Assembly: GCF_900115975.1 (NCBI RefSeq) | Contig: NZ_FOYM01000010.1 | Coordinates: forward strand, 1 to 64,000 | Source of the DNA: Desulfoscipio geothermicus DSM 3669 | Lineage (GTDB): Bacteria > Bacillota > Desulfotomaculia > Desulfotomaculales > Desulfallaceae | Reading direction: 5' to 3' | DNA length: 64,000 nt | In this document: positions 50,220-52,979 of the stretch, one piece after another | Layout of the letters: each line of letters starts with the position of its first letter | Numbering within the stretch: the first letter of the stretch is position 1 | The notes under the pieces: generated by a model | What the model was told of the DNA's origin: nothing | Database searches by the model: none | What the model saw: only the letters and a program-made list of their open reading frames with translations | Made by a program: the position numbers and the translations under genes

Positions 50220-50942
50220 CTACTCTTTGCCGGGTGGATTGTCGGTATGAGCCGGCTGTTCCTGGTTCGGTTTCGCGCCAACCGGAGTGCTATCCGGCTT
50301 ATCCTCCGTTTTGTTGCGCTTTAGTTTACCGATGGACTGGTTGACGCTGGAACTAAGTCCCCTGGTTTTCTGAACGGTTGTTTCCCACAGGTTACCGGTG
50401 GTATCCTTGATACCGCGCAATTTTTCCTGCAGCCCGCCCTCGAGCTTGATAGTTTTTTCCAGTGCCTGATCGGAACAAACAATCATTTCCTTGCCAACGG
50501 TAAGGACGTGGTCGACATCCAAAAAAGCCCTGCCGCTTACTATGCCGCTGATGTAACCACCGCTGAACTCTATGCCCACCAGTTCACCCGAGTCCAGGTT
50601 TACGTAATAATCGTCAACTTCACCCAGTATAGTACCGCTTTCGGTTACGACGCGCGTTCCGGTAATTTTGATGTTGTTTTTCACCAGGTTGATGATTTCC
50701 GGCAGACTACCGCCTTTTTGTACCGCGGTGCCCTGGTTGACGGTCACGGCATCCTCACCCACACTGCGGACATGGTTGTAAGGGATGAATTTTTGTTCCT
50801 GAAACCAACCCTTTTGTTCTATGATCAGGGCGGCCACCCTTTTTGCGATGGGATCAACCACCAGACCCTTGATGGTGCCGATTTGCTGCCCCTCTTGCAG
50901 GCTGATTACCGGCATGGAGATAAATTGTTTACTTTTGCGCAT
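50220..50942 (-). CDS. PRC-barrel domain protein (YrrD-like)
   Basis: Two PRC-barrel units are visible: MPVISLQEGQQIGTIKGLVVDPIAKRVAALI and TRVVTESGTILGEVDDYYVNLDSGELVGIEFSGG. A helical, basic tail ends in a Pro/Asn-rich stretch. Such proteins occur widely in spore formers, but their role is not established. The start is either ATG 50942 or the in-frame ATG 50948; GGGGGTGGG is better spaced for 50942. Confidence 0.82.
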   Translation of the reverse strand: MRKSKQFISMPVISLQEGQQIGTIKGLVVDPIAKRVAALIIEQKGWFQEQKFIPYNHVRSVGEDAVTVNQGTAVQKGGSLPEIINLVKNNIKITGTRVVTESGTILGEVDDYYVNLDSGELVGIEFSGGYISGIVSGRAFLDVDHVLTVGKEMIVCSDQALEKTIKLEGGLQEKLRGIKDTTGNLWETTVQKTRGLSSSVNQSIGKLKRNKTEDKPDSTPVGAKPNQEQPAHTDNPPGKE

Positions 50943-51050
50943 TGTCATCCCACCCCCTGACGCCCAAAAGTTTTTTTATTTAATGTTATGTCGGGTGGCT
51001 GTTTGATATAACCGCTAACAGGGAATATTATCCCAGAGGAGGTTTTTAAT

Positions 51051-51671
51051 ATGTCAGATTTTAATTTACAAGTAAACTATCGGGAAAAGAAAGGTAAGAG
51101 CTACCGTAAGGAGTTGGCCCGCCGGGAAATGGTGCCCGGAGTTGTTTACGGTAAGGGGGCGGGCAGTATTCCGGTTGAACTGGAATACAGGTCCTTGCGT
51201 ACTATATTGCAGCGGGGCGGCAAGCCGGTAATCGACCTGACCGTGCAGGGGCCGGGCGCCGGCGAAACCCGCAATTACAAGGTATTGATCAAGGAAATGC
51301 AATACGACCCGATCAAGGGGGACTTGATGAACATAGACTTTCACCAGATCTCCCTGGATGACGATATCCAGACCGCTGTGCCCATCAACTATGTTACCGG
51401 CAAGGTAAACGGTATTGTGCAGTACTTGCTGAGGGAATTGCAGGTGTCCTGCCTGCCCGGCGACATCCCGCAGGAAGTAACGGTAAATGTTGACGGCCTG
51501 GCGGTCGGGGACACCATCACCGTGCAGGACATCGCGGTGCCGGATAAAGTCACCGTGCTGGATGAGCCTGATACGGCGGTGGTTACCGTGGTGGCGCAGC
51601 AGGCAGAAGATAAGCCCGCCGCTGAAGAAGAGGCGGAAGGCGCCGCAGAAGCCGAAGCGCAAGAAGAGTAA
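51051..51671 (+). CDS. rplY: 50S ribosomal protein L25 / general stress protein Ctc
   Basis: The N-terminal 5S-rRNA-binding L25 domain (YREKKGKSYRKELARREMVPGVVYGKG) is followed by the TL5-type C-terminal domain (INYVTGKVNGIVQYLLRELQVSCLPGDIPQ) and an acidic Glu/Ala tail. It is 206 residues long. AGAGGAGG precedes the ATG. It lies between prs and pth, where ctc is found in B. subtilis. Confidence 0.96.
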   Translation: MSDFNLQVNYREKKGKSYRKELARREMVPGVVYGKGAGSIPVELEYRSLRTILQRGGKPVIDLTVQGPGAGETRNYKVLIKEMQYDPIKGDLMNIDFHQISLDDDIQTAVPINYVTGKVNGIVQYLLRELQVSCLPGDIPQEVTVNVDGLAVGDTITVQDIAVPDKVTVLDEPDTAVVTVVAQQAEDKPAAEEEAEGAAEAEAQEE

Positions 51672-51678
51672 TTGCGTA

Positions 51679-51729
51679 ACCATTCCTCCTTATCCTGCAT
51701 ACTCTGGATAAAGTATAATGATAAGGAGG
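51679..51729 (+). promoter_or_regulatory. Candidate sigma-K promoter within an SD-sequestering hairpin
   Basis: AC (51679-51680), 17 bases, CATACTCT (51698-51705) fits sigma-K, with a start near 51712. CCTCCTTATC (51685-51694) is perfectly complementary to GATAAGGAGG (51720-51729), which is the ribosome site of the next gene. Only transcripts that begin upstream would contain both arms. Confidence 0.5.
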
Positions 51730-51736
51730 GGATAAA

Positions 51737-51985
51737 ATGGCAGACAGTATCAGTTACCCCGGTCCCGGGTACGGCCCGGGTTACGGCATGACCTTCACAG
51801 AACGGCTCAGCAGCTGCGTCAGAAGGAATGTTACTGTTTATATAGGCGAAGAGAATACTCCCGTCGCGGGTATGTTGCATGCCGTGGGATCCAACTACGT
51901 GGAAATACACCGGATGACCGGCAATACGACAGAAGCGATAATTGTTCCGATCCATTCTATCTCAGCAATTTCCTGTCCTGTTTAA
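51737..51985 (+). CDS. Small spore-coat-like protein (LSM-like, DUF2642-type)
   Basis: The protein (82 aa) has a Tyr/Gly/Pro-rich start (PGPGYGPGYGMTF) and an Sm-like beta part (CVRRNVTVYIGEENTPVAGMLHAVGSNYVEIHRM...IVPIHSISAI). This resembles small coat proteins of the YuzF/CotB type. A sigma-K-like promoter upstream agrees with a coat role. ATAAGGAGGGG precedes the ATG and is masked by an upstream complementary arm. Confidence 0.65.
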   Translation: MADSISYPGPGYGPGYGMTFTERLSSCVRRNVTVYIGEENTPVAGMLHAVGSNYVEIHRMTGNTTEAIIVPIHSISAISCPV

Positions 51986-52003: not shown

Positions 52004-52029
52004 AATACCCCCTCCAGCGAGGGGGTATT
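52004..52029 (+). terminator. Terminator
   Basis: AATACCCCCTC pairs with GAGGGGGTATT around CAGC. Only a weak T tail follows. Confidence 0.7.
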
Positions 52030-52071
52030 AAGTTTATGATATTATATAACTATTAACCGAAACATTTGACT

Positions 52072-52330
52072 GCTGTGGTATTGCCCATAAGTGAACGACT
52101 TGCGTAGCGCCGGTAACAGCACCCGGCGAAGCTTCGGGTAACCGGATAGCGGCGCGAAACCAGCGGCTCACTAACAGTTTGCGATTTTAAACAGATGAGC
52201 TCTAAAGTCAATATATCATAAAATATGAAAACATATCACGCCGCCTTTGCAGCGCCGCTAATCCGGTCCGAAGCAAGCCGTAGTGCTGTCGGCGCGAAGC
52301 ACTGGAGTGAGCGTTGGGCAATACTGCAGC
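52072..52330 (+). repeat. Structured dispersed element, copy 5 (diverged)
   Basis: The outer arms GCTGTGGTATTGCCCA (52072-52087) and TGGGCAATACTGCAGC (52315-52330) pair except for two internal bases. GCGCCGGTAACAGCAC pairs with GTGCTGTCGGCGC, and CCGGATAGCGGC with GCCGCTAATCCGG. Primary sequence is far from copy 3, yet each stem is kept. Confidence 0.8.
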
Positions 52331-52403
52331 GGGCTTACTGAATAATAATGGTATGATGAAATACAACTGTTGAGAGATTTTTGAATTAACGGGGGTATTT
52401 ATA

Positions 52404-52979
52404 TTGAAGCTGGTAGTGGGGCTGGGCAACCCGGGTCATAAATATGTCGCAACCAGGCATAATGTCGGTTTTCAGGCGGTGGACCTGGTGGCCCGGGCAT
52501 TGGAAACAGTAATTGATCGCCCGTTTTTGCGTTCCCTGGTGGGACAAGGCGTGTATCACGGCGAGAAAATCATTTTGGCCAAACCGCAGACTTACATGAA
52601 CCTGAGCGGGGAAGCGGTAATCCGGCTGTTACAGTGGTATAAACTGGATCCACCCGACCTGGTGGTTATCTATGACGACCTGGACCTGGAACCGGGCCGG
52701 CTGCGAATCCGCGACCGCGGCGGCGCAGGCGGGCACCGGGGCGTGGCGTCTATTATCCGGATGCTGGGCGCCGCTGATTTTGTCCGGGTGCGTGTGGGCA
52801 TCGGCCGGCCGTCGGCCCGGGGTCCGGAAGTGGTGGACTGGGTGCTGGGACGGCCTTTGCCCGATGAAGCCCGGGCCATTGACCGGGCGCTGCAGGTGGT
52901 GCCCGAGGTGGTGTGGGAACTGGTGGATGGCGGCGTCACGGCGGCCATGAACAAGTTTAATCGCCGCGAACCGGTATAA
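52404..52979 (+). CDS. pth: Peptidyl-tRNA hydrolase
   Basis: This releases tRNA from stalled peptidyl-tRNA. It has LVVGLGNPGHKYVATRHNVGFQ with the catalytic His, KPQTYMNLSGEAV, VVIYDDLDLEPGRLRIR and GGAGGHRGVASII. At 191 residues it is standard. The TTG start follows GGGGGT. It is the first gene of the pth-fin-mfd run shared with B. subtilis. Confidence 0.96.
   Translation: MKLVVGLGNPGHKYVATRHNVGFQAVDLVARALETVIDRPFLRSLVGQGVYHGEKIILAKPQTYMNLSGEAVIRLLQWYKLDPPDLVVIYDDLDLEPGRLRIRDRGGAGGHRGVASIIRMLGAADFVRVRVGIGRPSARGPEVVDWVLGRPLPDEARAIDRALQVVPEVVWELVDGGVTAAMNKFNRREPV

Follow-up and report, generated by a model that had tools for sequence, protein, structure and literature searches.

Developmental genes often lie behind growth genes with no terminator in between. 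In the insertion sequences IS10, IS50 and IS200, RNA that is initiated outside the element folds and hides the start of the transposase gene. For sigG (spoIIIG) of Bacillus subtilis, PMC5942855 describes a large hairpin that is predicted to make PspoIIG read-through RNA untranslatable and that cannot form in RNA made from PsigG. A comparable logic is reported in PMC2988022 for late genes of phage T4 (I-TevI, I-TevII, I-TevIII and segB, as well as soc and e), where early or middle read-through RNA hides the ribosome-binding site and the position of the late promoter leaves the blocking sequence out of late RNA.

Here, we examine the leader of an 82-aa coat-like gene of Desulfoscipio geothermicus DSM 3669, located in a 64,000-nt stretch of contig NZ_FOYM01000010.1 (the window). 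Like sigG, it appears to be a sporulation gene behind a co-directional operon, with a hairpin that would block read-through and would be absent from RNA of its own promoter. Unlike sigG, which has a forespore promoter, it has a putative mother-cell-type promoter, a product with a predicted Sm fold and a ribosomal protein gene as its neighbour, it belongs to a different lineage, and its conservation could be tested across four families. A sequence-only reading of the window had likened the arrangement to T4 late genes. This is a fair analogue in the placement of the promoter, but sigG is nearer, as the gene studied here is developmental, lies on the chromosome and has a putative promoter of sporulation type, with no phage and no endonuclease involved. 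The arms of IS10, IS50 and IS200 belong to the end of the element, whereas those described here belong to a fixed chromosomal leader. Our literature search, with subscription journals mostly outside it, returned no description of this leader or of its recurrence. Within the literature searched, the mechanism is already known, and what appears new is this member of the class, its order-wide conservation and its recurrence at nrdG-LysM and yqfC, as read from sequence comparison.

Locus layout and the predicted leader hairpin

The coat-like gene begins with an ATG at 51737, and the co-directional rplY gene, with its stop codon at 51669-51671, ends 65 nt upstream. A pattern scan of the region found no terminator-like site in this gap. 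The features of the locus are as follows.

51051-51671, + strand: rplY (bL25/Ctc), with Pfam Ribosomal_L25p, Ribosomal_TL5_C and TIGR00731 all above cut-off
51679-51680, + strand: -35 AC of the putative sigma-K-type promoter, with AC-N17-CATA kept in 31/32 leaders
51685-51694, + strand: predicted blocking arm (anti-SD) CCTCCTTATC, exact complement of 51720-51729, covarying with the Shine-Dalgarno sequence (SD) in relatives
51698-51705, + strand: putative -10 CATACTCT, followed by GG, with CATAnnnTG in 32/32 leaders listed
51699-51716, + strand: upper stem of the MFE fold, ATACT (51699-51703) with AGTAT (51712-51716)
51712, + strand: predicted transcription start, approximate, 6-7 nt 3' of the -10
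51720-51729, + strand: SD arm GATAAGGAGG, exact reverse complement of the blocking arm
51737-51985, + strand: coat-like gene, 82 aa, GY-rich N-terminus and Sm-like domain
52009-52025, + strand: terminator-like stem 3' of the coat-like gene, from the pattern scan only
52404-52979, + strand: pth (spoVC), the downstream neighbour, TIGR00447 above cut-off

The same scan gave 3 terminator-like stems in the region against 1.6 expected from shuffles. Divergent from rplY is a PRC-barrel gene (50220-50948, - strand), which is present at 15/15 family loci and scores below the cut-off for the YlmC/YmxH spore family. The stretch between the coat-like gene and pth (52030-52400) looks repeat-like by eye.

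The ten-base complementarity that the sequence-only reading had noticed between the SD and an upstream arm is exact, although the two arms are separated by 25 nt rather than the 26 nt that it gave. The promoter motif that it placed between the arms is likewise present, with 17 nt between AC and CATACTCT, and the blocking arm sits inside this promoter spacer. The predicted start near 51712 follows from the usual distance between a -10 and a transcription start. The MFE fold of the leader (-18.9 kcal/mol) consists of an 11-pair stem with one U-G pair and the ATACT/AGTAT upper stem, and the ten-pair blocker alone accounts for -13.7 kcal/mol. As the folding z-score of the whole leader in the window is modest (-1.5 to -2.6), the statistical weight of the hairpin comes instead from its relatives and from its local rarity: among 68 GGAGG-plus-start sites in the window, that of the coat-like gene is the only one with an upstream helix of at least 7 exact pairs over the SD.

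Three other candidates in this stretch were set aside. The competing hairpin that had been proposed (TTATCC/GGATAA, 51690-51695 with 51706-51711, -5.1 kcal/mol) was dropped as a conserved structure and is ascribed to chance, since a helix of at least 6 pairs occurs at that place in 1/32 leaders, namely the window's own. A sigma-A -10-like TATAAT is found at 51714-51719, where no fitting promoter was called, and the best Rfam match (17.3 bits against a gathering score of 47) is located outside the leader.

The blocking arm follows the Shine-Dalgarno sequence across families

Our target set comprises 32 leaders of four families (f1, f5, f9 and f18), drawn from 44 matching genomes. Left out of it are G074, in which the start was not found, G103 and G104, which match weakly and contain a stop, and, in G013, a second copy that is degenerate, has an internal stop and lies about 1.6 kb 3' of the intact one (L028). 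As a control group, we used 11 homologues (eight of f12 together with L060, L064 and L076) that were chosen after the leaders had been inspected and thus not blind; one of these, L060, does show short arm pairing. Upstream of the f12 homologues (L059-L071), the sequence is a different one (TTTTACATTT..ATATAGC), and their SD is surrounded by a short repeat, CAAATCCT..AGGAGGTTTG.

The promoter AC-N17-CATAnnnTG is intact in 31 of the 32 leaders, sites having been picked by CATA...T with no requirement for the G after the T. In f1, AC-N17-CATAnnnTGG lies between the arms in 15/15 leaders. The arm itself differs completely by family (CTCCTTAT, CCCCC, CCCTCCC and CCTCCCTTG), and it tracks the SD, with CCTCC opposite GGAGG, CCCCC opposite GGGGG and CCCTCC opposite GGAGGG. 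In f5, the SD has become GGGGG and the arm CCCCC, with TTTAACCCCCTTGC versus GCAAGGGGGTTAAA in the single case of L072. The f9 leaders combine CCCTCC/GGAGGG with a CATAAA/TTTATG stem above, and L049 of f18 pairs CCTCCCTTG with CAAGGGAGG. Upper stems in relatives are TGCATA/TATGCA or CATAAA/TTTATG. Not every leader conforms: L048 and L058 are without a strong hairpin, and those of L009 and L006 are weak.

Within the alignment of the 15 f1 leaders, 93.9% of cells pair, and 4 of the 9 pairs have changed on both sides. Of 500 shuffles, 0-5 match these pair counts; no slid version does, the slid registers reaching 33-74%. The spacer between a -35 and a -10 needs no particular letters for the sigma factor, so that a spacer arm that nevertheless changes along with the SD indicates RNA pairing. 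Conserved, with compensatory change, are the blocking arm, a promoter motif that lies between the two arms and hence the predicted absence of the blocking arm from RNA of this promoter. Judged by its relatives, the predicted leader hairpin is a selected structure, and comparison lends good support to the main idea of the sequence-only reading.

The same comparison bears on whether the inverted repeat is instead a DNA operator, with a dimeric regulator bound to the dyad around the -10 and the RNA pairing as a by-product. The dyad does span the promoter and is also retained in leaders that lack a co-directional gene upstream, but a complete change of arm sequence between families that follows the SD is hard to reconcile with a fixed protein site, as are the range of -10-to-SD distances (24-35 nt) and the tolerance of bulges and G-U pairs. 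We consider an operator unlikely.

Upstream genes and the source of read-through RNA

A co-directional gene lies upstream in 25 of the 32 leaders; in 23, it is rplY. L053 is preceded by a LivF-like ABC-transporter gene, which scores below its NCBIfam cut-off, and L073 by a co-directional ORF. By our own reading, in which ORFs antisense to an opposite gene are taken as spurious, seven leaders (L050, L051, L052, L054, L056, L057 and L058) have no near co-directional gene. In f9, the divergent neighbour of the coat-like gene is a malic-enzyme gene (Pfam malic, L050) or, at L057, what reads as the PRC-barrel gene. Six of the seven retain a stable hairpin; L058 has lost it. Read-through from rplY, which the sequence-only reading had put forward as the reason for the hairpin, is thus not the whole story. 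In these leaders, the hairpin may act on RNA that comes from a more distant gene or from pervasive transcription, or else it may be a relic or have a second role.

These neighbourhoods also speak to the idea that the hairpin mainly serves the rplY mRNA as a 3' stabiliser or terminator, its overlap with the SD being secondary. The frequency of rplY upstream would suit such a role, as would the position of the hairpin in the window, where it begins 14 nt past the rplY stop. However, it is not called as a terminator, it is kept where rplY is not upstream, and its 3' arm coincides with the SD in each family, which together make this role quite improbable.

Predicted exposure of the Shine-Dalgarno sequence

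We compared the predicted unpaired fraction of the SD in read-through RNA with that in promoter RNA, the latter taken from 6 nt after the -10. Over the 32 leaders, read-through RNA has a value of 0.08 and promoter RNA one of 0.48, with the higher value in promoter RNA in 31/32; in the window, the values are 0.01 and 0.43. With 5' halves from a foreign genus, exposure is 0.195, and with shuffled 5' halves it is 0.316, as truncation from the 5' end raises exposure somewhat in any leader.

A different outcome is expected if transcription starts 5' of 51685, such that every transcript carries the hairpin and a constitutive attenuator or sensor damps or switches translation. A small hairpin at the ribosome-binding site of promoter-initiated RNA is known for B. 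subtilis sigG, according to PMC5942855. At the coat-like gene, a promoter motif is instead found between the arms at fixed spacing in 31/32 leaders, and we find no conserved alternative switch helix and no Rfam family at gathering score. We therefore regard an attenuator as very improbable.

When the 3' halves of the 32 leaders are swapped, the native mean of -20.8 kcal/mol compares with -14.9 kcal/mol for permuted leaders and is reached by 0/20,000 permutations, a significance that is overstated in that the leaders share ancestry. Restricting the set to a single leader from each genus (14 in all) again gives 0/20,000, and swaps within families reach the native value in 3 (f1), 231 (f5) and 148 (f9) of 20,000 each. 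Base composition is not the cause, since letter-shuffled 5' halves remove the effect (native minus chimera of -0.16, sd 0.40, versus -6.0). A swap of pairs in fixed register within f1 was weak (397/20,000), as arms and SD are both conserved there, and the energy swaps were used instead. The mean folding z-score is -3.6 in 25 leaders and -0.9 in the 11 control homologues, a grouping that was not blind. Chance complementarity between common SD-like and anti-SD-like strings, for which one may cite that CTCCTT..AAGGAG is not enriched genome-wide (3 places against 8 in the reversed control), is contradicted by the conservation, the covariation and the swap tests and is scarcely credible.

The coat-like protein and its sigma factor

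Relatives of the coat-like protein occur in 15/16 genomes of the family and 44/113 genomes of the order, those with names being Desulfoscipio, Sporotomaculum, Desulfallas and Desulfotruncus. Searches of Pfam and NCBIfam match the protein to no family, and Pfam still gives none at an E-value of 5. In its AlphaFold model (mean pLDDT of 79, pTM of 0.59), the protein forms an Sm-like barrel, with low confidence at the N-terminus. Foldseek returned nothing at E <= 0.001 with this model, and a second comparison, with the GerQ coat filament (8zra), gives a Z-score of 10.4 and an rmsd of 1.9 over 67 residues, tied by Hfq. GerQ of Bacillus is a spore coat protein that shares the Sm-like fold with the model, but identity is 13% with no sequence-family match, and Hfq chains score equally; in the absence of such a match, we do not file the protein as GerQ. 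The label "coat-like", first given in the sequence-only reading, gains from the GerQ/Hfq-type Sm fold and from the fact that the genome also encodes sigma-K, and this identity of the modelled protein is plausible, not proved.

The letters of sigma-K promoters are AC at -35 and CATAnnnTA at -10. The last letter of CATAnnnTG is a G in place of this A. If AC is taken as letters 2-3 of the -35 element and CATA as starting from letter 2 of the -10, AC-N17-CATACTCT would fit a 14-nt gap. PMC517825 gives sigma-K promoters 5-nt -35 and 10-nt -10 elements that are 14-16 nt apart; the passages of PMC7438776 and PMC3789829 do not settle the promoter letters. The genome encodes sigK, which scores 338 bits where the cut-off is 298.65. 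The factor that would drive the leader promoter is most likely sigma-K, and sigma-E may be an alternative.

Recurrence at other genes

In the family, a gene with LysM/BsuPI domains that follows nrdG (TIGR02491 above cut-off, L182) has the same layout, with a promoter in a hairpin. The predicted SD exposure is 0.05 versus 0.44 from the promoter and is higher from the promoter in 12/13 leaders; the energy swap is borderline (976/20,000). One leader (L195, the G001 copy) has 12 exact pairs, and at L190, a co-directional gene other than nrdG precedes the LysM gene. In this set (L182-L196), L194 was not located and L184 had no CATA...T match, and the paralogues L198-L201 were unused.

For yqfC (TIGR02856 above cut-off), our 85 loci consist of 16 from the family, the best 29 of the phylum matches and 40 picked by hand (187 matching genomes), of which 75 were used, 3 being without a start and 7 skipped. 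In the family, predicted exposure is 0.014 versus 0.648 from the promoter, higher in 16/16. Outside the family, 17/59 leaders are strongly sequestered by arm sequences of their own, with 0/10,000 in the swap and a composition control of -0.39 versus -2.6. Among the yqfC leaders (L203-L218 and L221-L289), a sigma-E-looking -10 lies inside the SD-covering hairpin throughout the family and in a number of distant spore formers, whose arm sequences differ.

A search of four genomes for AC-N17-CATAnnnT..GGAGG gave 99 sites, 95 of them non-target. At least 8 exact pairs are present at 4/95, compared with a permuted mean of 0.62, and 2/2,000 permutations reach 4; since a single LysM gene, seen in three genomes, accounts for three of these sites, they represent about two independent genes. 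A broader pattern, applied to 113 genomes, gave many chance matches, and 14 places were picked by eye among the matches listed. Several conserved-looking matches to it had no start codon behind them. A form similar to TCCTTACCATATTCATAAAATAATATACCAC..ATATTGTCAAGGA (L115, L116, L126 and similar) is seen in eight genomes of the family, with no start codon and SD behind it on the same strand.

A short membrane protein gene, which we take to be YjcZ-like and which had no family match in profile searches, has a hairpin in one genome (L122, TCCTTAGC/GCTAAGGA) and weaker forms elsewhere. In genes of this kind at L122, L124 and L121, the SD is AAGGAGG and the promoter spacer contains TTTCCTT or something close to it, and two copies are located on contig C66 of this genome.

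On balance, these cases tilt us toward the view that endospore formers repeatedly place sigma-E or sigma-K promoters in SD-covering inverted repeats, such that developmental genes behind growth genes are translated from their own promoter only. As part of this reading, the yqfC version would reach well past the order, with arms that differ from lineage to lineage.

Proposed role and implications

We consider it probable, from the comparative evidence, that the leader, with its promoter inside a hairpin, serves to insulate the coat-like gene. The arms, the promoter motif, their conservation and covariation and the predicted SD exposure can be read from the sequences; from these, we infer the following sequence of events. 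RNA entering from upstream, here from rplY, would carry the anti-SD arm, which would fold onto the SD so that the coat-like protein is not made from read-through RNA. A mother-cell sigma factor, likely sigma-K, would initiate 3' of the arm near 51712, and the late transcripts, free of the blocking arm, would have an open SD. Because the hairpin would block read-through RNA, we propose that protein output depends on the gene's own sporulation promoter, and the benefit may be that coat protein is kept from growing cells.

If this is true, such leaders would explain the silence of coat genes in dense operons, and the hairpin would offer a signature by which sporulation promoters could be recognised in sequence. 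The single case of sigG would then become a testable rule for endospore formers.
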